Shown: positions 35,402 through 63,757 of the stretch, one piece after another
Position numbering within the stretch: position 1 is the stretch's first letter
How the letters are laid out: the number at the start of each line of letters is the position of its first letter
Assembly (NCBI GenBank): GCA_963576475.1
Contig: OY754979.1
Location: 34,819,778-34,883,777 of the forward strand
Length of the DNA: 64,000 nt
Direction of reading: 5' to 3'
Origin: Molanna angustata
Taxonomy: Eukaryota > Arthropoda > Insecta > Trichoptera > Molannidae
Position numbers and translations under genes: made by a program
Notes under the pieces: model-generated
The model's database searches: none
What the model saw: only the letters and a program-made list of their open reading frames with translations
What the model was told of the DNA's origin: nothing

Positions 35402-35439
35402 TTTTTTTTTTTTTTGGATTGTTAGTCTGTTATTGTCTC

Positions 35440-35645
35440 CCTTGCTTATAACAATACAAGATTGTGTTCATATTTAATTTTGTTGAGAGTCTTAGTAGTT
35501 ATTTGTATTGTGTTTATTGTGTTTGTGTTGGGATGGGAGGGATGACGGCTGCGGCCTTATTCGGGACCTTCTCCGCATTTGCGTTACTGACAAGGGAACC
35601 ACAGAAAACCTTGTCGGAGAAGCTGACCTATCTAGGTCTTCCGTG
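35440..35645 (-). promoter_or_regulatory. TRE1 conserved 3' UTR RNA module
   Basis: Holds CCTTG (35440) with CAAGA (35457; one pair lost compared with TRE4). The two-part stem is CTTCTCCG (35568-35575)/CGGAGAAG (35615-35622) with ACAAGG (35590-35595)/CCTTGT (35609-35614). The hairpin is GACCT (35625)/AGGTC (35634). Coordinates are plus strand; the element RNA is the complement. Confidence 0.7.
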
Positions 35646-35979
35646 ATGTTATGGTACTGACATCCGGCATTTTTGTGTGTAGTGTGTGGGTATGTTTATT
35701 GTGTATTGCGTGATTAAGTTTGTGAATATTTGTGAGTGTATGTGCTGCTGTTGTTTTGTTTTGTTGTGGTGTATTTTTTTTTTTTTTTTAGACATGTGCT
35801 GTGTTTGGGAATTCAAATTGTTATAGGTATGAAATAAAGGAGTATGTTTTATTTAATTTATTTAATTTGGCTGCCTTCTGGAAAGTAAATTGATTAAAGA
35901 AAAATAAAATTGATTAAAGAAAGATAAATAAAATAGAATAGGAAATAAATTGTTGTAAAGGAGTAAGTGTTGTCTGATA

Positions 35980-37622: not shown

Positions 37623-37645
37623 GGTTAGGTTAGGTTAGGTTAGGT
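37623..37645 (+). repeat. Telomeric (TTAGG)n mini-array between TRE1 and TRE2
   Basis: About 4-5 TTAGG units separate the broken 5' end of TRE1 from the A-tail of TRE2. Confidence 0.9.
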
Positions 37646-37674
37646 TTTTTTTTTTTTTTTAATTGTGTTTTACA

Positions 37675-37807
37675 CCTTGCTTATAATGAACAAGGTTGTA
37701 ACGAAGATCAACTTTATTGTATGTGCAGGATGGGAAGGATGTCGGCTGTGGTCTGCAAATAGGACTCCCCCCGGCATTCGCCTTATGATAAGGAAACCAC
37801 AGAAACC
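37675..37807 (-). promoter_or_regulatory. TRE2 conserved 3' UTR RNA module, distal half (rest at 41721-41749)
   Basis: CCTTG (37675)/CAAGG (37691) is the terminal hairpin. CCCCCCG (37767-37773) and ATAAGG (37788-37793) pair with CGGAGGG (41727-41733, one mismatch) and CCTTAT (41721-41726) on the other side of the insertion. The last hairpin is GGCC (41737)/GGCC (41746). The 14-base spacing inside the stem equals that of TRE3 and TRE4. Confidence 0.7.
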
Positions 37808-37882
37808 TAATAATTAAACACAGAAACCACAGAAACCTAATAATAAACAAAAATAATTCAATTAGAAAGCACTTTAAATAAC

Positions 37883-38353
37883 ATGGAGCAGTTCTCCAGA
37901 AGGGATAATTTAGAAATTTTTGGCATACCTGAAAATAAAAGTGAATCACCAGTTGACATTATGAAGAGCATCGCCAAATGTTTAAAAACTAATCTAAATG
38001 ATGATGACATAATTTATGCCTCGAGGATACCTGCAAAAAATAATTTTCCAAAACCACTAATAGTTAAATTAAAAAACAACAACCTAAAGAACACGATCAT
38101 ATCATCCATTCGGAAAAACAAAGGCCTTCGAACAGGAGATATTGGACTGTCTGGCGAGCCTAGACAAATATATATCAATGATCACCTGACTCCAAGAAAT
38201 AAATTACTATTAAGAAAAACACGAGAAGCCACTAAAGAAAAATCTTTTTTGTATGTCTGGACACGAAATTGTCGGATATGGGTTCGAAAAAACAACACTT
38301 CTCCTGCGCTGCTCATACAAACCGAAGAGGACATCACCAAGAAAATTATATGA
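37883..38353 (+). CDS. CR1/Jockey-like ORF1 protein, N-terminally truncated
   Basis: 156 codons from an ATG. QFSRRDNLEIFGIPENKSES near the start is the RRM-like core found in ORF1 proteins of L1/CR1/L2-type retrotransposons. A basic C-terminal region follows, with KSFLYVWTRNCRIWVRKN. The usual N-terminal coiled coil is missing because the element is 5'-truncated, so the frame begins inside the domain. Known role of the family: RNA binding and chaperoning within the retrotransposition particle. Confidence 0.75.
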   Translation: MEQFSRRDNLEIFGIPENKSESPVDIMKSIAKCLKTNLNDDDIIYASRIPAKNNFPKPLIVKLKNNNLKNTIISSIRKNKGLRTGDIGLSGEPRQIYINDHLTPRNKLLLRKTREATKEKSFLYVWTRNCRIWVRKNNTSPALLIQTEEDITKKII

Positions 38354-38576
38354 CTTTCCACAATCTCATCCTTCCCAACCCCTATTCACACCAAATCCTA
38401 TCCTCCCAATTCACCAAACACCCAAAAAATATCTTTATTATCTTCATCATAATACTCTTAACTTATACTCACGTTACTGATTTTACTGATATATACGTAG
38501 ATACCTACCTCTCAAAACTTTCATACATACTGCTAAATTATTTCACCAAGTCATATTTCACTGTTAAGAACATAAA

Positions 38577-41447
38577 ATGATTTCGATACTTTACCAAAAC
38601 TGTAGAGGCTTGCGTACTAAATGTAACACTTTTTACCAAAATATTCTGCTTAATGACATATACAATATAATTGGCATAACCGAAACATGGCTACCTGATT
38701 CCATTTCAGATAGTGAACTTTTACCTGTCAACAAGTATGACGTTTTTCGCAAAAATAGATCATACAATCTTTCCAACAAAACTATGGGTGGTGGCGTGAT
38801 GCTTATACTGGAAAAAGACTTCCATGCATGTGCACATGAACACAATTATGATATAGAATGCATCTGGGTCTCCATACCTAAATCTACTCTTGCCTACAAT
38901 GTATCTTTACATGTTGTCTGTGTATATTTACCTAGAGGAAAAAACTACTCATCGGCGGTGAGTAACTTTTTTGATTTATTGAAACACATAAATGAAATGT
39001 ACCGTGAAGATAAAATTTTAATCTTGGGTGATTTTAATATGCCAAATATTCAGTGGGTATCTAACCATTACTCTAACACTTTAACACCACATATTACAAA
39101 TACTGATCCCAACGTTTTAATTCTGATTGATACTATGTCATACCTGAATCTAAACCAATATAATTACATACTTAATTCGAATCAACGTATTCTGGATCTA
39201 GTACTATGTAACATAGAATGTAAAATTTCTCGTTGTGACTCCCCACTCGTAGAAGAGGATTTACATCACCCCACTCTTCATATTGACATACCAACTCAGC
39301 AAATGATAATGCTACCAGCTGGCATCAGAGAAATAATTCTTTACAAAAAAGCTAATTATGATATAATTAATATGCATCTCTCGGAAGTTAATTGGAATCA
39401 CCTCGAACGTCATGACGATATTAACATTGCAGTCGACGAATTCTATTATAAATTACGCACTATTATAAGACAACATATCCCTCGTAAATTAATAAACCTT
39501 TCAAATTACCCCACATGGTACAGCCCTGCACTAATCAAAGTTATCAAAGAAAAACATAAGTATCACAACAAATGGAAACGTTTCCACAACCCATGCGACT
39601 ATTCGTCATTTTCTCTACTTCGAACCCGTCAAAAATCACTTCAACGTCACTGCTTTACCAAGTATATACAAGTAATCGAAAATAATATTCAAATCAACCC
39701 GAAAAACTTTTTCACATATATTAAAAATAAAACAAAATCGCACAATATTCCACAAACTATGTATTATCGTAATATCACATGCCATGGCAATGAGGAAATC
39801 TGTTCACTTTTCTCCGATTACTTTAAATCTGTTTTCATAGACTCATCAAAAACTCACAGCAATCTCCACTCACATAATAATCTTTCTACTCAGTTGTTTT
39901 CTAATAACATTGGACATATTCGAATCACTCAGTCTGAAGCAAATAAATACTTGAAACAAATTGATAAAAACAAAGGATCCGGAAGTGACGAGATTAGTCC
40001 ATACTTTGTATTTCAATGTGCTGACCAATTAAGTATACCAATTTCAATTATTTTTAATAAATCAATGAAGGATGGCAAATTTCCAACAATATTCAAAGAA
40101 GCCCTTATAACACCCATTCATAAATCAAAATCAAAAAATGACATCGAAAATTATCGCCCCATATCTATATTATCTGTATTTAGTAAAATATTTGAAAAAA
40201 TTGTACTTGATCAAATCTACCCAACGATTTCTCCATACATTAGTAATCACCAACATGGATTTTTAAAAAAACGCTCAGTTCTTTCAAATCTACTTGACTT
40301 CACGGAATATGTCTCACAAAAAATGAACAACCACTTACAAGTCGATACTATTTATACAGATTTTTCAAAGGCGTTTGATCGGGTCGACCACAATATACTC
40401 ATTCATAAGCTCTATAGTGTAGGCATTCACGGTGACCTTCTCCGATGGTTTGACTCATACATAAGAAACAGGCAACAGGCGGTGGTTTTAGGGAGCTGTA
40501 AATCTAATTTCACTTATATTCCGTCGGGTGTACCCCAGGGTTCACATCTAGGACCTATTCTTTTCAATATTTATATATATGATATTCAATTTTGCTTCCA
40601 ATCCTCATATTTTTCAGGGTTCGCTGACGACTTGAAAATTTACAGAACTATTAACAACATAAACGACTGTTTCGATTTGCAAAATGATATCAATAGGCTA
40701 AGTACATTTTGTTGTGATAATAAACTTGACATCAACGTGTCCAAGTGCGCCCTTTTAACTTTTTCCCGCAAGAAAACGCTAATATCATATGATTATTCAA
40801 TTAATGGTTCTGCATTAAAAAAAGTCGACAGCATAAGGGATTTAGGAGTAACATTGGATTCTAAATTGATGTACGATAAACATATTGAATCAATAACCTC
40901 CAAAGCCTACCGAATGCTGGGTTTTATCATCCGCACCGGAAAACAATTCAACAACATGTACACTTTAATAACACTTTATCTTTCATATATTCGCCCTCAT
41001 CTAGAATTTTGTACACCAATTTGGAACCCGCACTATAAAATCCACAGCAACCGTATTGAAAACATCCAGAAAACTTTTTTTAAATATTTAGAGAGACGAC
41101 TATTCATAGAACATACTAATTATAAATTATCTACAGAATTCTTCAAATTAAACACATTGCAAGACAGAAGGACCTTATTCGATCAACTGTTACTGTATAA
41201 AATATGCAACAACCTTATTGACTCCTCCGATTTACTAAGCACTATATCACTCCATGTACCAAACAGGCACACCCGTTCGAAAAATTTATTTCATCTACCT
41301 ATTTGCCATACTAATTACAGATATCACTCGACTATTTACAGAATTCAACGTGACAATAATCTAAAATTTAAACACACTGACATTTTCCATGACTCCATAG
41401 AAACTTACCGTAAACAAATAAAGATATTTTTCAACCCAGTTCCCTAA
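38577..41447 (+). CDS. CR1/Jockey-group ORF2: AP-type endonuclease and reverse transcriptase
   Basis: 956 codons, uninterrupted, starting at an ATG. The N-terminal endonuclease has ILYQNCRGLRTK, ITETWLPDS and LILGDFNMPNIQW. The reverse transcriptase has ENYRPISILSVFSKIFEKIV, QHGFLKKRSVLSNLLDF, YTDFSKAFDRVDHNILIHKL, PSGVPQGSHLGPILFNIYIY (about residue 650) and the catalytic GFADDLKIY (about 682). There is no RNase H or C-terminal zinc motif of R1 type. The protein nicks target DNA and copies its RNA by target-primed reverse transcription. The open frame suggests a recent insertion. The exact clade (CR1, Daphne or Jockey) needs a tree. Confidence 0.92.
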   Translation: MISILYQNCRGLRTKCNTFYQNILLNDIYNIIGITETWLPDSISDSELLPVNKYDVFRKNRSYNLSNKTMGGGVMLILEKDFHACAHEHNYDIECIWVSIPKSTLAYNVSLHVVCVYLPRGKNYSSAVSNFFDLLKHINEMYREDKILILGDFNMPNIQWVSNHYSNTLTPHITNTDPNVLILIDTMSYLNLNQYNYILNSNQRILDLVLCNIECKISRCDSPLVEEDLHHPTLHIDIPTQQMIMLPAGIREIILYKKANYDIINMHLSEVNWNHLERHDDINIAVDEFYYKLRTIIRQHIPRKLINLSNYPTWYSPALIKVIKEKHKYHNKWKRFHNPCDYSSFSLLRTRQKSLQRHCFTKYIQVIENNIQINPKNFFTYIKNKTKSHNIPQTMYYRNITCHGNEEICSLFSDYFKSVFIDSSKTHSNLHSHNNLSTQLFSNNIGHIRITQSEANKYLKQIDKNKGSGSDEISPYFVFQCADQLSIPISIIFNKSMKDGKFPTIFKEALITPIHKSKSKNDIENYRPISILSVFSKIFEKIVLDQIYPTISPYISNHQHGFLKKRSVLSNLLDFTEYVSQKMNNHLQVDTIYTDFSKAFDRVDHNILIHKLYSVGIHGDLLRWFDSYIRNRQQAVVLGSCKSNFTYIPSGVPQGSHLGPILFNIYIYDIQFCFQSSYFSGFADDLKIYRTINNINDCFDLQNDINRLSTFCCDNKLDINVSKCALLTFSRKKTLISYDYSINGSALKKVDSIRDLGVTLDSKLMYDKHIESITSKAYRMLGFIIRTGKQFNNMYTLITLYLSYIRPHLEFCTPIWNPHYKIHSNRIENIQKTFFKYLERRLFIEHTNYKLSTEFFKLNTLQDRRTLFDQLLLYKICNNLIDSSDLLSTISLHVPNRHTRSKNLFHLPICHTNYRYHSTIYRIQRDNNLKFKHTDIFHDSIETYRKQIKIFFNPVP

Positions 41448-41857
41448 TTCCTTCAAACAAGCTCTATCCTTCACTCCAATAATCCCTCCTTTTCCCCATT
41501 TTATTTTCATTATGTATTGTATTTTTTTTATTATCAATTGTTTTTTTTTCTTCTCTTATAATTGTTATTCTTTTACCTGCTGCTCAGCATACTAGTTTAT
41601 TTGTAATTCATTAATTTAAATAGAAGAAAACAATATTGGCTTGTAATAATTTTAAAAGCACCAAATGTAACGAAACAATTAACAAAGCTGTAGTTTTCTG
41701 AAATAAAATAAATAAATAAACCTTATCGGAGGGAACGGCCATGCAGGCCTTCCGTAGTATAGTTATTTACTCGGCATTATGTTATCAAGAATTATAAATG
41801 CATTAAAAATTACTGAATTACACAGAATGATTATATTAAGAAAGAAAAGAAAAATGA

Positions 41858-46656: not shown

Positions 46657-46684
46657 GTTTGGAGTTGGGAGTATCTGAGGTTCT

Positions 46685-46945
46685 ACCTTGCAAGTTACAC
46701 ACAAGGTGTTAGTCTACTTTGGTTTTGGTTATTGAGCCTTGCTTATCGCGGACAAGGTCTCCTGTCCTTTCGGGTGTTCTATAATTTGTGTTTTATTTGA
46801 TATTATTGTGTATGTGATCAGTGTGTGTGTGTTATGTCGGGATAGGCAGGATGGCGGCTGCGGCCTGATTTGGGACTCTCCCCGCATTTGCTTGATTGAT
46901 AGGGAAACCGCAGAAACCCTATCGGGGAGACTGGCCGCATCGGCC
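46685..46945 (-). promoter_or_regulatory. TRE3 conserved 3' UTR RNA module
   Basis: Terminal hairpin CCTTG (46737)/CAAGG (46753), plus an extra similar one ACCTTG (46685)/CAAGGT (46702). The two-part stem is TCTCCCCG (46877-46884)/CGGGGAGA (46923-46930) and ATAGGG (46899-46904)/CCCTAT (46917-46922). The last hairpin is GGCCG (46933)/CGGCC (46941). Sequence differs from TRE4 at paired positions while pairing is kept. Confidence 0.75.
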
Positions 46946-47052
46946 TTCCGTGACGTAGTGACGTCCGGCATTTTTGTATTGTTAGTGTTTGTGTGTAGTC
47001 TTTTCGTGAACCTGAAAAGTGTGAGAAAGTGTTCATATTGCATGTTGGCGTG

Positions 47053-51984: not shown

Positions 51985-54900
51985 AGGTCACTAAATTCAA
52001 TAAAAATTCGCGATCAAAATCTAAAAGATGAACGCGGCGCTGTATAAAATACTGGTAATGATGTATAAAATACCGATGTATAAATATTAACTATGAAAAT
52101 ATATAAGAATTGATTTTTTTTATGTAAAATAAGACTCACTCGATAGGACTTCTGTGCAGAAAAGTTGCTTGATTGGTACTAAATTCTGAAAAGACGCTAT
52201 GAATAAAATGGCGAGCAAGATGGCGGCGCTTCGCGGCGCGATCCTATCGGCTGATGGAGGAATGAAAGACAAGTCAAATGCGAGAAAAAAGAACGAGGAA
52301 ACGAAGAAATATATGGTCAATACAGCGTGCTTGTATTTATCGATGAATTGAGAAAAAGAAAAACTAAATTAAATGGCGTGACGTTATTTGAAGGTGTATA
52401 AATGAATATAAAAAAAAGCGAAAATATGTATGAAAGTTTTGACGAAATTCAACAAAAATTCGCGATCAAAATCTAAAAGACGAACGCGGCGCTGTATAAA
52501 ATACTGGTAATGATGTATAAAATACCGATGTATAAATATTAACTATGAAAATATATAAGAATTGATTTTTTTTATGTAAAATAAGACTCACTCGATAGGA
52601 CTTCTGTGCAGAAAAGTTGCTTGATTGGTACTAAATTCTGAAAAGACGCTATGAATAAAATGGCGAGCAAGATGGCGGCGCTTCGCGGCGCGATCCTATC
52701 GGCTGATGGAGGAATGAAAGACAAGTCAAATGCGAGAAAAAAGAACGAGGAAACGAAGAAATATATTGTCAATACAGCGTGCTTGTATTTATCGATGAAT
52801 TGAGAAAAAGAAAAACTAAATTAAATGGCGTGACGTTATTTGAAGGTGTATAAATGAATATAAAAAAAAGCGAAAATATGTATGAAAGTTTTGACGAAAT
52901 TCAACAAAAATTCGCGATCAAAATCTAAAAGACGAACGCGGCGCTGTATAAAATACTGGTAATGATGTATAAAATACCGATGTATAAATATTAACTATGA
53001 AAATATATAAGAATTGATTTTTTTTATGTAAAATAAGACTCACTCGATAGGACTTCTGTGCAGAAAAGTTGCTTGATTGGTACTAAATTCTGAAAAGACG
53101 CTATGAATAAAATGGCGAGCAAGATGGCGGCGCTTCGCGGCGCGATCCTATCGGCTGATGGAGGAATGAAAGACAAGTCAAATGCGAGAAAAAAGAACGA
53201 GGAAACGAAGAAATATATGGTCAATACAGCGTGCTTGTATTTATCGATGAATTGAGAAAAAGAAAAACTAAATTAAATGGCGTGACGTTATTTGAAGGTG
53301 TATAAATGAATATAAAAAAAAGCGAAAATATGTATGAAAGTTTTGACGAAATTCAACAAAAATTCGCGATCAAAATCTAAAAGACGAACGCGGCGCTGTA
53401 TAAAATACTGGTAATGATGTATAAAATACCGATGTATAAATATTAACTATGAAAATATATAAGAATTGATTTTTTTTATGTAAAATAAGACTCACTCGAT
53501 AGGACTTCTGTGCAGAAAAGTTGCTTGATTGGTACTAAATTCTGAAAAGACGCTATGAATAAAATGGCGAGCAAGATGGCGGCGCTTCGCGGCGCGATCC
53601 TATCGGCTGATGGAGGAATGAAAGACAAGTCAAATGCGAGAAAAAAGAACGAGGAAACGAAGAAATATATGGTCAATACAGCGTGCTTGTATTTATCGAT
53701 GAATTGAGAAAAAGAAAAACTAAATTAAATGGCGTGACGTTATTTGAAGGTGTATAAATGAATATAAAAAAAAGCGAAAATATGTATGAAAGTTTTGACG
53801 AAATTCAACAAAAATTCGCGATCAAAATCTAAAAGACGAACGCGGCGCTGTATAAAATACTGGTAATGATGTATAAAATACCGATGTATAAATATTAACT
53901 ATGAAAATATATAAGAATTGATTTTTTTTATGTAAAATAAGACTCACTCGATAGGACTTCTGTGCAGAAAAGTTGCTTGATTGGTACTAAATTCTGAAAA
54001 GACGCTATGAATAAAATGGCGAGCAAGATGGCGGCGCTTCGCGGCGCGATCCTATCGGCTGATGGAGGAATGAAAGACAAGTCAAATGCGAGAAAAAAGA
54101 ACGAGGAAACGAAGAAATATATTGTCAATACAGCGTGCTTGTATTTATCGATGAATTGAGAAAAAGAAAAACTAAATTAAATGGCGTGACGTTATTTGAA
54201 GGTGTATAAATGAATATAAAAAAAAGCGAAAATATGTATGAAAGTTTTGACGAAATTCAACAAAAATTCGCGATCAAAATCTAAAAGACGAACGCGGCGC
54301 TGTATAAAATACTGGTAATGATGTATAAAATACCGATGTATAAATATTAACTATGAAAATATATAAGAATTGATTTTTTTATGTAAAATAAGACTCACTC
54401 GATAGGACTTCTGTGCAGAAAAGTTGCTTGATTGGTACTAAATTCTGAAAAGACGCTATGAATAAAATGGCGAGCAAGATGGCGGCGCTTCGCGGCGCGA
54501 TCCTATCGGCTGATGGAGGAATGAAAGACAAGTCAAATGCGAGAAAAAAGAACGAGGAAACGAAGAAATATATGGTCAATACAGCGTGCTTGTATTTATC
54601 GATGAATTGAGAAAAAGAAAAACTAAATTAAATGGCGTGACGTTATTTGAAGGTGTATAAATGAATATAAAAAAAAGCGAAAATATGTATGAAAGTTTTG
54701 ACGAAATTCAACAAAAATTCGCGATCAAAATCTAAAAGACGAACGCGGCGCTGTATAAAATACTGGTAATGATGTATAAAATACCGATGTATAAATATTA
54801 ACTATGAAAATATATAAGAATTGATTTTTTTTATGTAAAATAAGACTCACTCGATAGGACTTCTGTGCAGAAAAGTTGCTTGATTGGTACTAAATTCTGA

Positions 54901-55324
54901 AAAGACGCTATGAATAAAATGGCGAGCAAGATGGCGGCGCTTCGCGGCGCGATCCTATCGGCTGATGGAGGAATGAAAGACAAGTCAAATGCGAGAAAAA
55001 AGAACGAGGAAACGAAGAAATATATGGTCAATACAGCGTGCTTGTATTTATCGATGAATTGAGAAAAAGAAAAACTAAATTAAATGGCGTGACGTTATTT
55101 GAAGGTGTATAAATGAATATAAAAAAAAGCGAAAATATGTATGAAAGTTTTGACGAAATTCAACAAAAATTCGCGATCAAAATCTAAAAGACGAACGCGG
55201 CGCTGTATAAAATACTGGTAATGATGTATAAAATACCGATGTATAAATATTAACTATGAAAATATATAAGAATTGATTTTTTTTATGTAAAATAAGACTC
55301 ACTCGATAGGACTTCTGTGCAGAA
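51985..55324 (-). repeat. TRE3 5' tandem monomers, 452 bp, about 7.4 copies
   Basis: Units repeat every 452 bp (one is 451) with almost no differences, for example ATGAACGCGG in the first copy against ACGAACGCGG in the rest. Each contains a GC-rich core AAGATGGCGGCGCTTCGCGG (first at 52217) and a 66-codon minus-strand frame. The array is cut within a unit at CTTCTGTGCAG, where TTAGG repeats start. Position upstream of ORF1 suggests monomer-type promoter repeats. Confidence 0.95.
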
Positions 55325-56187
55325 GTTAGGTTAGGTTAGGTTAGGTTAGGTAGAAGGTTAGGTTAGGTTAGGTTAGGTTAGGTTAGGTTAGGTTAGGTTA
55401 GGTTAGGTTAGGTTAGGTTAGGTTAGGTTAGGTTAGGTTAGGTTAGGTTAGGTTAGGTTAGGTTAGTTAGGTTAGGTTAGGTTAGGTTAGGTTAGGTTAG
55501 GTTAGGTTAGGTTAGGTTAGGTTAGGTTAGGTTAGGTTAGGTTAGGTTAGGTTAGGTTAGGTTAGGTTAGGTTAGGTTAGGTTAGGTTAGGTTAGGTTAG
55601 GTTAGGTTAGGTTAGGTTAGGTTAGGTTAGGTTAGGTTAGGTTAGGTTAGGTTAGGTTAGGTTAGGTTAGGTTAGGTTAGGTTAGGTTAGGTTAGGTTAG
55701 GTTAGGTTAGGTTAGGTTAGGTTAGGTTAGGTTAGGTTAGGTTAGGTTAGGTTAGGTTAGGTTAGGTTAGGTTAGGTTAGGTTAGGTTAGGTTAGGTTAG
55801 GTTAGGTTAGGTTAGGTTAGGTTAGGTTAGGTTAGGTTAGGTTAGGTTAGGTTAGGTTAGGTTAGGTTAGGTTAGGTTAGGTTAGGTTAGGTTAGGTTAG
55901 GTTAGGTTAGGTTAGGTTAGGTTAGGTTAGGTTAGGTTAGGTTAGGTTAGGTTAGGTTAGGTTAGGTTAGGTTAGGTTAGGTTAGGTTAGGTTAGGTTAG
56001 GTTAGGTTAGGTTAGGTTAGGTTAGGTTAGGTTAGGTTAGGTTAGGTTAGGTTAGGTTAGGTTAGGTTAGGTTAGGTTAGGTTAGGTTAGGTTAGGTTAG
56101 GTTAGGTTAGGTTAGGTTAGGTTAGGTTAGGTTAGGTTAGGTTAGGTTAGGTTAGGTTAGGTTAGGTTAGGTTAGGTTAGGTTAGGT
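55325..56187 (+). repeat. Telomeric (TTAGG)n array 3
   Basis: About 170 units, nearly perfect. There is one interruption (TAGAAGG) at about 55350 and one shortened unit (GTTAGTTAGG) near 55466. Confidence 0.98.
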
Positions 56188-56227
56188 TTTTTTTTTTTTT
56201 TTTGGATTGTTAGTCTGTTATTGTCTC

Positions 56228-56426
56228 CCTTGCTTATAACAATACAAGGTTGTGTTCATATTTAATTTTGTTGAGAGTCTTAGTAGTTATTTGTATTGTG
56301 TTTATTGTGTTTGTGTTGGGATGGGAGGGATGACGGCTGCGGCCTTATTTGGGACCTTCTCCGCATTTGCGTTACTGACAAGGGAACCACAGAAAACCTT
56401 GTCGGAGAAGCTGACCTTTCTAGGTC
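56228..56426 (-). promoter_or_regulatory. TRE4 conserved 3' UTR RNA module
   Basis: Terminal hairpin CCTTG (56228)/CAAGG (56245). The two-part stem is CTTCTCCG (56356-56363)/CGGAGAAG (56403-56410) and ACAAGG (56378-56383)/CCTTGT (56397-56402), with a 14-base bulge on one side. The last hairpin is GACCT (56413)/AGGTC (56422). Confidence 0.75.
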
Positions 56427-56760
56427 TTCCGTGATGTTATGGTACTGACATCCGGCATTTTTGTGTGTTGTGTGTGGGTATGTTTATTGTGTATTGCGTG
56501 ATTAAGTTGTGAATATTTGTGAGTGTATGTGCTGCTGTTGTTTTTTTTTTTGTTGTGGTGTATTGTTTTTAGACATGTGCTGTGTTTGGGAATTCAAATT
56601 GTTATAGGTATGAAATAAAAGAGTATGTTTTATTTAATTTATTTAATTTGGCTGCCTTCTGGAAAGTAAATTGATTAAAGAAAAATAAAATTGATTAAAG
56701 AAAGATAAATAAAATAGAATAGGAAATAAATTGTTGTAAAGGAGTAAGTGTTGTCTGATA

Positions 56761-59700
56761 TCATTTATTTAGTTTGGCCACCTTCTGTGCCACTAATTCC
56801 AAAAATTCAATGTATTGTGGATTGTTTATTGCTTCTGTTCTATTTTGGAAGTTTATGTTTTTTCTTTGAAGAAGCATTTGGATGCTCCATCGCTCTCTCT
56901 GGAACATCGGACAATTTTCGATTATATGGTCTATGGACTGTTCGCTGGTGTCATCGCATTGGCATAGGGCGTCATCTACTTTTTTGAAGCGATGTAGGTA
57001 TGATTTGTTCGCTCCGTGCCCTGTGAGCATCTGTGTGAGGAAATATGAGATTTTGTTGTATTTCCTGAATGCATGTGCTTGTTGTAAGTTGTTAAAGAAT
57101 GTCTTAGTGACTTTGCCAGTTTGCGATTCAGCATATCTCTGTTCCCATTTGCTCAGGAGGTGTTGTCTTATAAGCCTTTTTGCGTGACTCAGCGGAAATT
57201 TATCATATATTTTAACAGTCTTTGTTTTTGTTGCTGCATCTTTTGCAAGTTGGTCAGCTCGTTCGTTGCCCGGTATTCCAGAGTGTCCTTTAATCCAAGC
57301 AAATGTGCACGTTGTGCCGTTTTCTTTCAAGCTTTTGCAGGTGTTTTGTATGGAAAAGACAAGCCGGTTAGTCGGGGCTCCGTTTTCGAGCGCTTTTATT
57401 GCACTTTTGCAATCCGATAAAAGTTTAACCTGCGAGTGCTTTTGTCTTTGTTTCGTTAGCCATTCTAGCGATTCTCTGATGGCTACGAGCTCGGCCTGAA
57501 AGACGGTGCAATGGTCTGCCATGGGAAGTTTTTTGGTGGCTATCTCTTTATTATCATGGTCAAAGGTAACAAAAGCTGCTCCAACTTTCCCTTCCGTTTT
57601 GCTACCATCTGTATAGATGTATAGGGTATCGGCGTCAGTTGTCGAAGACTGCTCGATATTGCCGAGGTATTCGGTTTTCACCCCTATTTGTTCGGTTGGG
57701 TGCGGGAGTTCTTTAATCTTTACCTTGTTCTGGAGCCTTACGTCCGAAGGGAGTAGCTCTTGGATGGTACCTTTTATTTTGGTGTCGTATATTAGTGACA
57801 GCTCTTCCACCTTCAAGTCCAGTGGCATGACTCCTGCTATTGCTTGGACGGACGTGAGCGACGTTGTTCTGTATGCCTTGCATATTCTCAGTGCGACCGC
57901 CCGTTGGACGATGTTGAGCTTCTTGCGGATGTTTTGCCTTTTCGCAGCGTCCGCCCAGACGCTGGACGCATAGGTCACTACTGGCTCTGTTATTCCATGG
58001 TATATGGTTTTAATAGCTTCAGGGGGCAGTCCCCATGTCGCTTTTGCCATGGTCGTTAATTTATTAGTGATGCCAGTAGCTTTTTTACAAATCGTGTCCA
58101 CGTGTTTGCTCCAGTTTAACTTGTGATCAATAGTGACCCCTAGTACTTTGGCGTCTTCAGAGAGGGGGAGTGGCTGGCCATTCATAATAATCTTTGGTTC
58201 TCTCACTCTCCTCTTAGTCATGAAGAGCACCTTTGTTTTTGCCTCTGAAAATGAAAGCTTTACTTTTGTTCCCCATTGGGAGACCGTATCGAGAGTTACG
58301 TTGGCGATCGTTTCCAGAGTTGGAGTGTCAGCTGCTTCAATAATGAGGAAGACATCATCCGCGAAGGCTTGGATGTGTACGTTGGGATGGAAAGGCAGTT
58401 GAAGGAGTTGGTCTAGGATTATGTTCCAGAACATAGGTCCGCAGGCCGATCCTTGAATGCAACCTTTGTTGCTCTCTTTCCATACTTTTACGCCTGCGTA
58501 GACGGTCTCGACAGTTCGATCACTCAGGTAGTTCTTTATGAGTGCGAAAGTATTGCGGGGGCAGCTCTTATCGGCCAGCTGGCTGAGCAGGAACGGCCAC
58601 CACGCATTGTCGAACGCCCCTTGGATATCTAAGGAGATAGCTAGCACTACGTTTCCTTTTCTTTGGGCGGTCTTGATCCTTCTGACCGTGTCGTAGAGAG
58701 CGTCTTCAGTGCTCGTTTGGGGCGTGAAACCAAACTGTCGTAAGCTGAGTCTTTCCTCACTTATGAGTCTCCATTGTGTACGGGATGCGATCAGTTTCTC
58801 GAGTGTCTTTCCAAGAACGGATATCAATCCGATCGGACGGTATGACGATATGTCCTCGTAGTCATCTTTACCCGGTTTGGGGATGATTTTGATTCGGGCA
58901 ATTTTCCACGCTCTCGGGAAACATCCGAGTCTGAGGCAAGCATTGTAAATGGCTGTCAACTCTTTCGGGATCGCTTCGAAGGCTTGTAGACATATGTCAG
59001 AGGTGAAGTGGTCACTTCCTGGGGCTTTGGATGGATTCATGGACACGATTATTTTTTTGACCTCTTCCTGCGTAAAGGGCTGTTCGTCTTCGAGGGAAGG
59101 CGTGGAGCGTGAGTTAATTCGAATGTTGGTCTGCTCGGTCGTCTCGTTGTTCGTGTCATCATCCGGAAAGAATTTCTCGAGGAAGGCTTCCGCAGATTCT
59201 CGCGCCGTGTTTGTGAATCCTTTTGCAGTTTTGACAGTCTCGGGTGGTTTGCGACTGTAGGGTTTCAAGATTCGTTGGACGCAGCTCCAGACGGTTTCGT
59301 TTTCTTGGATTTGACAGTATTCTTTCCAACTTTTGGTTCTTGCAACCTGGATGGCCTCTTTGAACTCCTGTTTGGCTCTAATGTATTCTGGAAGCGTAAT
59401 TTGGGTTCTCCTCGCGATGGCTGAGTTTTTGAGTCTTCTTTTAGAGGCTATGGCCTTCTTCTTTAACGACTCTAGCTCAGAGTTCCACCACGGGCACTTC
59501 TTTCGCTTAGCAGGTCTGATGGGTGGTATCGCTGCTCTGCAGGATTCGTGGATACCATCCGTGATGGATTGAATCTGTCTTTCCAGTATCACAGTTTGGT
59601 CGTTTTCAGAAATTCTTTCCTCGTTGATCTGTTTACTTTCCACGTGAGCTATTAGTTTCTTTTGGAACTTCGTCCAGTTAGCTTTGGCTGTTTTATACAA

Positions 59701-60408
59701 AAACGTGGAGTCTTCTATCGAACCAGGCGTTGTTTGTCTCTCAATGTCAAATGTAATTGCGTTATGATCGGAGAGTGGAGCTATTTCCCTGTCAACTTTC
59801 CAATGACTGATTTTGCTGAGTAGGTTTTGCGTACAAACTGTAACGTCAATTACGCTCGATATATCGATGTTATTGCGCGTAATTTCGAAGGTTGGTGTAT
59901 TGCCTTCGTTTAAGACGTGGAGTTGATGTTGAGATAAGAAGTCTATGACTTCTTCTCCTCTTTTGTCAGTTCGCGCGCTGCCCCACCAGATGCTTTTAGC
60001 ATTTGCATCAGCACCAAAAAGGACGGTATGCTTTTTGTCCGAATTCATAATTTTATCGACGCAGGAAACGTTCCTTTCAACGCTTTCTCCTGGTTCGCAG
60101 TATACAGATCCAACGACCAACTTAATTCCGCCGAGTGTCATCTCCACAAACACGCACGCGTGATCGGAAAACTGCTGTAACATGATGCTGTCATTCGCGG
60201 TCCCTTTGGCCACTAGAATTGCCGCCTTGACCACATGGTCTTTTTGCGGTTTCTGGAAGGTCAGTCCATCAAAGATCTTCTTGTTGACCTTTCCTTTATT
60301 CCCAGTGTAGGGTTCTTGTAGAAGAGCAACATCATAGCCTTCCTCGGAAAACTTATCAATGAAGCTCAACGTTGCCGCTTCGCACCTCTGGAGATTGACT
60401 TGAGCCAT
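56761..60408 (-). CDS. TRE4 ORF2: endonuclease, reverse transcriptase, RNase H
   Basis: 1215 codons from an ATG. The endonuclease has VNLQRCEAAT, LLQEPYTGN (QEP 31-33), FGADANAKSIWWG (131-143) and SDHN (213-216). The RT has SSYRPIGLISVLGKTLEKL (521-539), AISLDIQGAFDNAWW (590-604), KGCIQGSACGPMFWN (648-662) and the catalytic AFADD (681-685). The RNase H has acidic residues D934 (YTDGS), E973 (QAEL), D999 (LLSDC) and D1052 (NERADQ). The C-terminal CQCDDTSEQSIDHIIENC motif (about 1145-1165) is the R1-clade zinc-like motif. The protein aligns throughout with TRE3 ORF2 but is clearly a different family. All catalytic motifs appear intact. It would drive target-primed insertion into telomeric DNA. 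Confidence 0.95.
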   Translation of the reverse strand: MAQVNLQRCEAATLSFIDKFSEEGYDVALLQEPYTGNKGKVNKKIFDGLTFQKPQKDHVVKAAILVAKGTANDSIMLQQFSDHACVFVEMTLGGIKLVVGSVYCEPGESVERNVSCVDKIMNSDKKHTVLFGADANAKSIWWGSARTDKRGEEVIDFLSQHQLHVLNEGNTPTFEITRNNIDISSVIDVTVCTQNLLSKISHWKVDREIAPLSDHNAITFDIERQTTPGSIEDSTFLYKTAKANWTKFQKKLIAHVESKQINEERISENDQTVILERQIQSITDGIHESCRAAIPPIRPAKRKKCPWWNSELESLKKKAIASKRRLKNSAIARRTQITLPEYIRAKQEFKEAIQVARTKSWKEYCQIQENETVWSCVQRILKPYSRKPPETVKTAKGFTNTARESAEAFLEKFFPDDDTNNETTEQTNIRINSRSTPSLEDEQPFTQEEVKKIIVSMNPSKAPGSDHFTSDICLQAFEAIPKELTAIYNACLRLGCFPRAWKIARIKIIPKPGKDDYEDISSYRPIGLISVLGKTLEKLIASRTQWRLISEERLSLRQFGFTPQTSTEDALYDTVRRIKTAQRKGNVVLAISLDIQGAFDNAWWPFLLSQLADKSCPRNTFALIKNYLSDRTVETVYAGVKVWKESNKGCIQGSACGPMFWNIILDQLLQLPFHPNVHIQAFADDVFLIIEAADTPTLETIANVTLDTVSQWGTKVKLSFSEAKTKVLFMTKRRVREPKIIMNGQPLPLSEDAKVLGVTIDHKLNWSKHVDTICKKATGITNKLTTMAKATWGLPPEAIKTIYHGITEPVVTYASSVWADAAKRQNIRKKLNIVQRAVALRICKAYRTTSLTSVQAIAGVMPLDLKVEELSLIYDTKIKGTIQELLPSDVRLQNKVKIKELPHPTEQIGVKTEYLGNIEQSSTTDADTLYIYTDGSKTEGKVGAAFVTFDHDNKEIATKKLPMADHCTVFQAELVAIRESLEWLTKQRQKHSQVKLLSDCKSAIKALENGAPTNRLVFSIQNTCKSLKENGTTCTFAWIKGHSGIPGNERADQLAKDAATKTKTVKIYDKFPLSHAKRLIRQHLLSKWEQRYAESQTGKVTKTFFNNLQQAHAFRKYNKISYFLTQMLTGHGANKSYLHRFKKVDDALCQCDDTSEQSIDHIIENCPMFQRERWSIQMLLQRKNINFQNRTEAINNPQYIEFLELVAQKVAKLNK

Positions 60409-60424
60409 TTTGATGGAGGGGCCC

Positions 60425-61594
60425 TTAGCAAAGGTATTCGACCATGTCCCTGTACCGTTTTAGATACCTTCTGTATATTGGGCACTCTTTGGTTTGGTCT
60501 TTGTGCCGAGTCGGTTGTGTTTCCTTGTATTTTTTATTGCTCTCCAAGCAATGTGCACATTCCGACTGTTTACCTTTGCATTCATTAGGTGGGTGACTTT
60601 GGCAGCACAGTCTGCACGTTTCCTCCGGTGCATTGCACTTTGCTGCATAGTGGCCGTACCTCTGACATTTCCTGCATGTCAGGGACCCAATGTGTTCGTC
60701 GACCTTCACCTTAAGGAACCCGATGTTGACAGATTCCGCTCTCAAAAGCTCATCGAATAGCTGAGGAGATGTTGAAATTACCACCTTTTTAAGCAAGTTA
60801 TTTCTCCTAAATCTTGCCATGTACACAATTTTTGTGTCCTTATCGAGACCCTCTTTGTATTTATTTGAGATCGAGGGATTCTGTTTCCACAGTCCCTCGA
60901 GTATCTCCTCCTCTGTCAGGTGCTCTTCGACACCGATAAGGATTATTCTGGGTCTCAATTTGGGTTTTTCGATTGTGGTTATATTTTCTTGGCTGGCTAA
61001 GATTTTACGGAGTTTTTCGATATGCTCAGCTGTGTCGCACTGAACAGCGACCTGATTTCCGGTCTTTTTCCATATTTTGCTCACTCGCAGTCCCGATTTA
61101 ATAGGGTTTACCTCTTTCTTAATTTGTTTGAGAATGTCTTCAGAGGCCATCGGTTTTTTGCCTGTAACCACTATTGTTTGGGCGCGAGGAATGGTTTTTG
61201 CTGCTTGGCGAGATGTTGAGGGAGAAGGTGGTGATGATCGTGGTGTTGGAGTAAGCAGGGCGGGCCAATCGTGCGCTTTTAAGGCGAAAGCATTTGTGTG
61301 CCTTATTTCTTGTTCCAACAGTTTTTGTGTGTTGGAAAGGCGCTCTTTATGTAGGTCTTCTTTACTCGAAAGGACCCGCTCGGCAAGTTCCTCTGCGCAT
61401 ACCGATATTGAGTTGAGGCTATCCTTAATCTCCTTTTTGATTTGTTTGTGGATATTGCCACTCCTATCAAGAGCTGTGAGAGCGGTGGTGATGAATGCCA
61501 AAATTGGTCTTAAAAGGCTTTTGCAAGCCCTGGGTGTCTCTTCAGAGGTGCTTGGGGTTTGTGATTGGGTGGCGGCGGCTGGTGATTTTGACAT
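60425..61594 (-). CDS. TRE4 ORF1: Gag-like zinc-knuckle protein
   Basis: 389 codons from the ATG at 61592-61594. The N-terminus is Ser/Thr/Pro-rich with a possible coiled coil (about 40-100, KEDLHKERLSNTQKLLEQEI). The middle contains SEDILKQIKKEVNPIKSGLR, comparable with the other ORF1 proteins. At the C-terminus (305-389) are CRKCQRYGHYAAKC, CRLCCQSHPPNEC and CAHC...H...C zinc motifs. The stop is 16 bp before the ORF2 ATG. Expected to bind element RNA and support telomere delivery, as shown for Bombyx SART1/TRAS1 ORF1. Confidence 0.92.
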   Translation of the reverse strand: MSKSPAAATQSQTPSTSEETPRACKSLLRPILAFITTALTALDRSGNIHKQIKKEIKDSLNSISVCAEELAERVLSSKEDLHKERLSNTQKLLEQEIRHTNAFALKAHDWPALLTPTPRSSPPSPSTSRQAAKTIPRAQTIVVTGKKPMASEDILKQIKKEVNPIKSGLRVSKIWKKTGNQVAVQCDTAEHIEKLRKILASQENITTIEKPKLRPRIILIGVEEHLTEEEILEGLWKQNPSISNKYKEGLDKDTKIVYMARFRRNNLLKKVVISTSPQLFDELLRAESVNIGFLKVKVDEHIGSLTCRKCQRYGHYAAKCNAPEETCRLCCQSHPPNECKGKQSECAHCLESNKKYKETQPTRHKDQTKECPIYRRYLKRYRDMVEYLC

Positions 61595-61702: not shown

Positions 61703-63757
61703 GCACTCTAGTGTGAATGAATAAATATGATATGTATAGGTATGTATATATGTAGGTATGTAAAATGAATAAATATAATATGTATAGGTATGTATATGGG
61801 TGCTGTGTCAAATTTTTGAAACAATAAAATATAATATCGATAAATAAAATAAATATAATATGTATAGGTATGATATGGGTGTTGTGAAATTAAAATATAT
61901 AATATGTATGTATGTAATGAAAGTATATAATATGTGTTTGTGTAATGAAAATATATAATATGTATTTGTGTAATTAAAATAAATAATATGTAGGTATTTG
62001 TGTGATGAAAATATAAAATATATGATAGGTAGCTATGAATTGAGAGTTATAGCAGAAACTAATGAGAATATAAGAATTAAGAAAATTATGTATATGGATT
62101 TAAAAATAAATGCAAATCAAGGCTCGGAATCGAACTTTGCCTAGAAGTTTTGTAAATACTTAGAGAATTTATACCTATTTGAAATTTAACAATTTGAAAA
62201 TATAATATTTAAAATATCGAACCAATCTTCTCAAGAAGTGTGTGTGTCTTCAGCGGCTACTTGACTAACAATGGGTGGTCCCGTGCTTCCGCAGATTACA
62301 CGTGATGTGTGAGTGGTTTGAACGCTTTGTTGGTTAGAAACAGTCAAATTTTAATACAATGTTCACGTGATGTTTGGATGATCAAATTTGAAACAAAGTT
62401 GATATTCTATGTGTGTGTATAAATTAATAAAAATTATATATGTGCACTCTAGTGTGAATGAATAAATATGATATGTATAGGTATGTATATATGTAGGTAT
62501 GTAAAATGAATAAATATAATATGTATAGGTATGTATATGGGTGCTGTGTCAAATTTTTGAAACAATAAAATATAATATCGATAAATAAAATAAATATAAT
62601 ATGTATAGGTATGATATGGGTGTTGTGAAATTAAAATATATAATATGTATGTATGTAATGAAAGTATATAATATGTGTTTGTGTAATGAAAATATATAAT
62701 ATGTATTTGTGTAATTAAAATAAATAATATGTAGGTATTTGTGTGATGAAAATATAAAATATATGATAGGTAGCTATGAATTGAGAGTTATAGCAGAAAC
62801 TAATGAGAATATAAGAATTAAGAAAATTATGTATATGGATTTAAAAATAAATGCAAATCAAGGCTCGGAATCGAACTTTGCCTAGAAGTTTTGTAAATAC
62901 TTAGAGAATTTATACCTATTTGAAATTTAACAATTTGAAAATATAATATTTAAAATATCGAACCAATCTTCTCAAGAAGTGTGTGTGTCTTCAGCGGCTA
63001 CTTGACTAACAATGGGTGGTCCCGTGCTTCCGCAGATTACACGTGATGTGTGAGTGGTTTGAACGCTTTGTTGGTTAGAAACAGTCAAATTTTAATACAA
63101 TGTTCACGTGATGTTTGGATGATCAAATTTGAAACAAAGTTGATATTCTATGTGTGTGTATAAATTAATAAAAATTATATATGTGCACTCTAGTGTGAAT
63201 GAATAAATATGATATGTATAGGTATGTATATATGTAGGTATGTAAAATGAATAAATATAATATGTATAGGTATGTATATGGGTGCTGTGTCAAATTTTTG
63301 AAACAATAAAATATAATATCGATAAATAAAATAAATATAATATGTATAGGTATGATATGGGTGTTGTGAAATTAAAATATATAATATGTATGTATGTAAT
63401 GAAAGTATATAATATGTGTTTGTGTAATGAAAATATATAATATGTATTTGTGTAATTAAAATAAATAATATGTAGGTATTTGTGTGATGAAAATATAAAA
63501 AAATTTATGATAGGTAGCTATGAATTGAGAGTTATAGCAGAAACTAATGAGAATATAAGAATTAAGAAAATTATGTATATGGATTTAAAAATAAATGCAA
63601 ATCAAGGCTCGGAATCGAACTTTGCCTAGAAGTTTTGTAAATACTTAGGGAATTTATATTTGAAATTTATCAATTTGAAAATATAATATTAAAAAATATC
63701 GAACCAATCTTCTCAAGAAGTGTGTGTGTCTTCAGCGGCTACTTGACTAACAAATTG
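61703..63757 (-). repeat. TRE4 5' tandem monomers, 741 bp, about 2.8 copies
   Basis: GCACTCTAGTGTGAATGAAT recurs at 61703, 62444 and 63185, exactly 741 bp apart. The units are nearly identical, with a few changes in the last one near 63496-63505 and 63650-63690. The minus strand of each has AGTTCGATTCCGAGCC, a match to a Pol III B box. The last copy is cut at TTGACTAACAA, where TTAGG repeats start. Confidence 0.95.

Follow-up and report, generated by a model that had tools for sequence, protein, structure and literature searches.

Telomeric elements of the window

The window analysed here, a stretch of 64,000 nucleotides from Molanna angustata, lies near the right end of its contig (C15) in a genome of 995 Mb assembled in 131 contigs. 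The elements TRE1 to TRE4 are found on its minus strand, interspersed with TTAGG arrays; TRE1 and TRE2 are incomplete or broken. (CCTAA)n follows the 3′ ends of all four, which places them in the TRAS orientation, and the arrangement typical of SART elements, an A-tail followed by GGTTAGG, is seen in none of them. The elements of the window are thus TRAS-type in orientation, not SART-type. Genome-wide, A8(CCTAA)4 is matched at 182 places, as against none for the reversed control. Two long open frames are retained:

56761..60459, minus strand: TRE4 ORF2 (EN, RT, RNase H), open frame of 1232 aa
47053..50724, minus strand: TRE3 ORF2 (EN, RT, RNase H), open frame of 1223 aa

The two ORF2 products are 40% identical. 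Endonuclease comparisons, which cover the TRE4 and TRE3 ORF2, gave the TRAS1 enzyme (1wdu) as the top match of both (E 1.3e-36 and 129 bits for TRE4, E 4.2e-42 and 147.2 bits for TRE3), the R1Bm endonuclease (2ei9) being weaker (E 3e-6 and 2.4e-7, respectively). The likeness to TRAS1 and the TRAS family of the R1 clade extends to the orientation (A-tail then CCTAA), the TTAGG target and the EN-RT-RNase H layout of ORF2, although the endonuclease match, while nearest to 1wdu, is moderate.

Tandem arrays make up the 5′ parts of TRE3 (452 bp × 7.4, window positions 51993-55324) and TRE4 (spacing of about 741 bp, about 61869-63516); they reach or almost reach the TTAGG repeats, as if the 5′ UTRs consisted of repeated units. 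A plus-strand LINE (about 37811-41717), with a 959-aa frame for RT and endonuclease, sits in the inner stem/apical loop region of TRE2, adjoined by a 30-bp tandem duplication.

Anatomy of the 3′ UTR domain

An earlier note on this DNA had described in the 3′ UTRs of these elements an outer and an inner stem (S1 and S2) separated by a one-sided bulge of 14 nt, an apical loop and a following hairpin (H1). TRE4, TRE1 and TRE3 have all these parts on their sense strand, the minus strand of the window, where H1 lies 5′ of the stems. The description was incomplete, since three parts had been missed: a covarying hairpin upstream of H1 (H0), a probable pseudoknot and, ahead of the A-tail, a terminal hairpin. 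The extent given for it, 56228-56426, does span the region from H1 to the end of the terminal hairpin; it omits the upstream hairpin at 56455-56429. The features are as follows:

56429..56455, minus strand: TRE4 H0, 8-bp hairpin upstream of H1, arms 56455-56448 and 56437-56429, bulged A at 56432
56413..56426, minus strand: TRE4 H1, GACCT/AGGTC
56356..56410, minus strand: TRE4 S1 (56410-56403/56363-56356) and S2 (56402-56397/56383-56378), with the 14-nt bulge on the 3′ side (56377-56364)
56385..56392, minus strand: TRE4 probable pseudoknot, 5′ arm CUGUGGUU, within the apical loop
56337..56344, minus strand: TRE4 probable pseudoknot, 3′ arm GGCCGCAG, 3′ of S1
56228..56249, minus strand: TRE4 terminal hairpin CCUUG/CAAGG, loop U..AUAAG
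56187..56203, minus strand: TRE4 A-tail, then (CCTAA)n on the minus strand
35540..35670, minus strand: TRE1 domain copy (terminal hairpin 35440-35461, A-tail 35402-35415)
46848..46971, minus strand: TRE3 domain, 144 bits (H0 46968-46948, H1 46945-46933, S1/S2 46930-46877)
46913-46906 and 46865-46858, minus strand: TRE3 arms of the probable pseudoknot
46686..46757, minus strand: two TRE3 terminal hairpins (46757-46737 and 46706-46686), no long A-tail
41718..41777, minus strand: 5′ half of the TRE2 domain, cut by the LINE
37737..37810, minus strand: 3′ half of the TRE2 domain (terminal hairpin 37695-37675, A-tail 37645-37660)

The inner positions of TRE3 were taken by hand from the alignment described below (A3). 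The TRE2 domain of the window lies in two halves, 3.9 kb apart, because the plus-strand LINE inserted into it. That TRE2 has the same architecture is therefore seen not in the window copy but in uninterrupted copies elsewhere in the genome (14 matches, which share one identical core). Its outer stem does exist, although the letters first reported for it had been read on the plus strand, where a C.A mismatch occurs; in the sense direction, the stem is CCCTCCG/CGGGGGG, with one G.U pair.

The spacers are fixed in five families: 14 nt for the bulge, 12-13 nt for the apical loop, as claimed before, and 2 nt both between H0 and H1 and between H1 and S1. The figure of exactly 14 nt depends on how one pair is drawn, since G56 could pair with the invariant C82 (alignment columns), extending the inner stem to 7 bp and leaving a bulge of 13 nt.

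A terminal hairpin, usually also an A-tail, lies downstream of the domain in TRE1 to TRE4. TRE3-type copies (window 46657-46757; L133-L135) carry the terminal hairpin twice and lack a long A-tail; they end in ..CCAAACAA followed by CCTAACC. In TRE5 (L125-L130), short GC-rich repeats come after the domain, and inspection by eye of the stretches read showed no terminal hairpin. Two interstitial TRE3-like copies (L131, L132) have some pairs broken, as expected for dead copies, and one of them adjoins degenerate telomeric repeats.

Searches for known relatives were negative. Rfam gave no match over the window at the gathering score and, at E<=10 within 56180-56760, only two matches, neither better than chance and both on the opposite strand; a ribozyme or another Rfam family was thus rejected as the identity of the domain. 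The ORF2 peptides and the UTR pattern found no relatives in viral contigs. Ten places with the UTR pattern in bacterial genome contigs were judged to be chance, with no CTGYGG within 140 nt upstream.

Covariation of the helices and the probable pseudoknot

A profile built from four seeds gave 116 core matches (40 unique, 112 distinct places) in the collected loci of the same genome. Eighteen distinct cores of the 40, picked to span families and variants, form alignment A3, in which all lineages thus come from one genome. The structure scored (H0, H1, S1, S2 and six pairs of the pseudoknot) comprises 594 pair cells, of which 95.6% are paired, as compared with a column-shuffle mean of 87.4% (reached by 0/500); with partners slid by 1-3 columns, this fraction falls to 38.7-51.5%, with 0-3 pairs changed on both sides. 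Fourteen pairs are changed on both sides in A3 (shuffle mean 10.8, reached by 15/500), and the covariation score is 0.351 versus 0.190 (0/500). H0 shows both-side changes in 5 of its 8 pairs across the 18 rows; the innermost pair of H1 is not conserved. RNAalifold, run without a given structure, predicts H0, four pairs of H1, S1 and S2; at the pseudoknot site this tool, which draws no pseudoknots, places a local 3-bp hairpin.

A second test took phylogeny into account, the structure being fixed on TRE4 and substitutions being shuffled per tree branch over 33 rows. The compensatory changes noticed earlier are borne out here: 171/216 changed cells are still paired, versus a null mean of 36% (0/5000 shuffles), and compensated double changes occur in 13 pairs versus 4.95 (0/5000). 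The gaps of TRE2c could have been placed only with the structure as a guide, for which reason this row is absent from A3; the test was run with and without it. With TRE2c added, 184/231 cells and 14 pairs were obtained, reached by 0 and 1 of 5000 shuffles. Helix by helix, the observed paired fraction was reached by 23 (H0), 1 (S1), 21 (S2), 60 (pseudoknot) and 1387 (H1) of 5000 shuffles, and the double-change count by 10 (H0), 116 (S1), 1214 (S2), 830 (H1) and 5000 (pseudoknot). H1 by itself is thus not significant in this test, mainly through its innermost pair.

Our own structure-free all-pairs test, similar to R-scape and of low power with 33 or 34 rows, gave no pair at E<=0.05. Its best pair is 49-103 in S1 (E 0.105 without and 0.0725 with TRE2c); H0 9-24 changes from 0.765 to 0.158 when TRE2c is added, and 34-99, which lies outside the structure, ranks second or third (0.55 without, 0.565 with). 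The evidence is therefore strong for the helices jointly and weak for each single pair. A covarying 3′ UTR structure common to diverged telomeric elements is real. Strand asymmetry was dropped as a sign of selection at the RNA level, 568 cells being paired in sense versus 563 in antisense, of 594; the z-scores of four folds range from -2.2 to -5.3 in sense and from -2.2 to -3.1 in antisense.

Complementarity between the apical CUGYGGUU and a downstream GGCCRCAG suggests that these segments probably pair as a pseudoknot. Six family representatives were scanned in 7,140 windows of six pairs each; 12 of these windows were paired in at least 95% of cells and four in every cell. Three of the four are alternative registers in which the apical loop pairs with the segment lying 3′ of S1, and the last is 64-69 with 96-101. 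The three former have one covarying pair each, as against none for the latter, and merge into eight pairs, CUGYGGUU/GGCCRCAG, paired in 99.3% of cells. The covarying pair (C-G, U-A or U-G) is the only pair of the pseudoknot in which both partners change within the alignment, and the branch-shuffle test over 33 rows counted no compensated double change from TRE4 in the pseudoknot. All six core pairs are kept in 108 of the 111 scored core matches, among which some places are counted twice; the five others of the 116 were four short pieces and one that is cut off.

The GGCC boxes also permit competing folds. Folded as single sequences, TRE2 and TRE2b favour a helix that closes off the entire domain, and TRE3 favours yet another pairing. 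This closing helix, GGCCUGCA/UGCAGGCC, is predicted in the TRE2 clade; as a general alternative it was rejected, not being predicted for TRE4. From these predicted folds, it is possible that the GGCC boxes act as a switch.

Telomeric junctions and a proposed recognition of the RNA

Telomeric junctions were defined as A7 or more followed by (CCTAA)4, which gave 115 distinct places in the collected loci, and the terminal hairpin as CCTYG...CRAGG, or an allowed one-letter variant, within the last 110 nt. Under this strict pattern, the hairpin is present at 112/115 junctions; the three others are TRE1 of the window, with a G.U closing pair, a copy with a single broken pair and a copy with a deleted UTR. 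Its 13 variants are paired in 96.9% of 65 cells, versus 31-58% when slid. Only one pair is changed on both sides and, as this change is split exactly by the presence of the domain, it may be a single event.

The domain is found within 700 nt upstream of 90 of the 115 junctions. The 25 junctions lacking it, which have the same insertion site, are the deleted-UTR copy and 24 in the families TRE6 to TRE8, where the terminal hairpin takes the CCTCG form. TRE6-8 (L042, L047, L050, L060) have the TRAS orientation and AT-rich 3′ UTRs without the domain, the terminal hairpin and the target site being common to them and the other families. The covariance model found no domain in L042, L045, L050, L059, L060, L075 and L101; its matches in L047, L019 and L100 belong to adjoining TRE4-type copies. 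The upstream ORF2 ends of TRE6 and TRE7 are of the same kind (39% and 38% identity to TRE3), TRE6 reaching 44-48% to the TRE2 clade, and no ORF2 was seen for TRE8 within the stretch examined. In a tree of seven ORF2 C-termini, in which TRE7 is only 38% filled and TRE3 and TRE4 sit on long branches, TRE6 and TRE7 form one branch whose position is weakly resolved, so that loss and gain of the domain both fit.

Elements of the opposite orientation share these telomeres. SART-type junctions, with A8 followed by GGTTAGG repeats, occur at six places in the genome; at five of them, the 720-754 nt retrieved include sequence similar to the ORF2 of TRE3 or TRE4. In these same stretches, the six ends match neither the covariance model at E<=10 nor the sequence profile, two of them being truncated in the UTR; the domain is thus seen in the TRAS-type kind only. 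Among the SART-type copies L143 and L141, one breaks off prematurely within the 3′ UTR and carries an A-tail at that point, as internal priming would leave it, and one is 5′ truncated to its final part.

The earlier note had proposed a recognition structure for telomere insertion. Since members of TRE6-8, which have no such domain, insert at the same site, and the six SART-type ends also lack it in the stretches read, the domain is not a general telomere-insertion signal: related enzymes, as TRE6-8 show, do not need it for entry at the telomeric site. The other half of the proposal fares better, as the covarying structure, the ORF2 endonuclease nearest to TRAS1 (R1 clade) and a position fitting recognition by the ORF2 protein for target-primed reverse transcription all agree with it. 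From sequence and by analogy, the domain is most likely a self-RNA recognition module of the TRE1-5 lineage. The ORF2 protein would bind it as a tag marking its own RNA, the terminal hairpin and tail would bring the 3′ end of the RNA to the active site, and a TT/AGG nick in the TTAGG strand would supply the primer for cDNA synthesis, yielding the junction of A-tail and CCTAA. Binding, priming and specificity are transposed here from SART1, a stem-loop survey, zebrafish LINEs and R2, as far as the available text of these reports goes (PMC7265360, PMC5135761, PMC4176376, PMC10499050, PMC12222951, PMC12180492). Taken as a whole, the 3′ UTR of TRE1-5 holds an RNA domain that forms a unit of its own, about 120 nt long and composed of H0, H1, S1, S2, the 14-nt one-sided bulge and the probable pseudoknot; this domain probably serves the recognition of the element's own RNA.

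The terminal hairpin and tail could alone be the signal for reverse transcription, the domain doing another job in cis for the RNA of TRE1-5, such as packaging by the ORF1 protein, nuclear export, translation or stability. The counts lean this way, with the hairpin at 112/115 junctions (plus TRE1 if G.U is allowed) and the domain at 90/115, as does the varying distance from the domain to the A-tail (89 junction records, falling in bins between 70 and 150 nt). The hairpin has, however, that single double-change pair, which splits with the domain and may be one event, and stringent LINEs are known from the accessible parts of two reports to use 3′ UTR structures for recognition by the RT (PMC5135761, PMC4176376). 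We thus regard this explanation as unlikely.

The domain might also be the TRAS counterpart of a structure already studied in SART1 of the silkworm (R1 clade), and thus a known structure in new elements. SART1 is likewise a telomeric LINE with a structured 3′ UTR and an A-tail, and its proteins require this 3′ UTR in trans (PMC7265360). The consulted parts of the literature describe, for SART1, a central stem-loop essential for retrotransposition and a GGUU downstream of a second stem-loop (PMC5135761, PMC7265360), and call an asymmetric internal loop or bulge characteristic of such LINE stem-loops (PMC5135761); the SART1 fold is known here by description. The orientation of SART1 is nevertheless opposite to that of TRE1-4, and the comparison with SART made earlier is not supported, on three counts: TRE1-4 face CCTAA, the two ORF2s compared (TRE3 and TRE4) are nearest to the TRAS1 endonuclease, and the six SART-type ends of the same genome, two of them truncated, are devoid of the domain in the 720-754 nt read. 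A common identity with the SART1 stem-loop is accordingly improbable. In the literature searched (titles and abstract openings, older papers on SART1 and R1Bm 3′ ends lying outside its scope), no description of a TRAS 3′ UTR fold was found.

The domain of TRE4 and TRE3 is 77.2% identical, versus an ORF2 mean of 51.5% (codon alignment) and 65.0% for the best 123-nt ORF2 stretch, and is thus shown to be conserved above any equally long stretch of ORF2; the values are 65.6% for TRE4-TRE2 and 68.3% for TRE3-TRE2. A recent exchange of 3′ UTRs between families, with an irrelevant fold, would account for this excess and for the UTRs of TRE6-8 without the domain, but is very improbable given that 171/216 changed cells stay paired versus 36% expected, and that the internal spacers do not vary whereas the A-tail lies at differing distances from the domain.

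As a self-recognition module, the domain would resemble in principle what is found in R2. According to the portions available, the protein of A-clade R2 elements recognises a pseudoknot-hinge-stem in the 3′ UTR, with compensatory mutants tested (PMC12180492, PMC12222951); there, as would be the case in the TRE elements, a pseudoknot precedes a 3′ stem and a tail that leads to the RT. The likeness goes no further than principle, these elements being of another clade and endonuclease type; the R2 parts are moreover contiguous in about 65 nt, whereas the TRE4 pseudoknot would lie 87 nt from the terminal hairpin. R2Bm also has a small structured core (P1/P2) within a longer 3′ UTR (PMC10499050), described without a pseudoknot in the text available (PMC12222951), unlike the probable one of the TRE domain.

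We put forward, tentatively, that the TRAS-type lineage may have independently evolved a pseudoknot-plus-stem tag like that of vertebrate R2, possibly with a GGCC-box switch between H1, the closing helix and the pseudoknot, and that TRE6-8 may have lost or replaced this tag while keeping the target. The same genome would then hold natural enzymes with and without the domain. The way in which a LINE enzyme selects its own RNA is understood at the structural level for R2; to our knowledge, little is known about this choice in telomeric elements of the R1 clade. A compact, covarying and probably pseudoknotted tag, together with related families that lack it, would allow a direct test of self-recognition, and the domain is a candidate tag for telomere-directed insertion tools.
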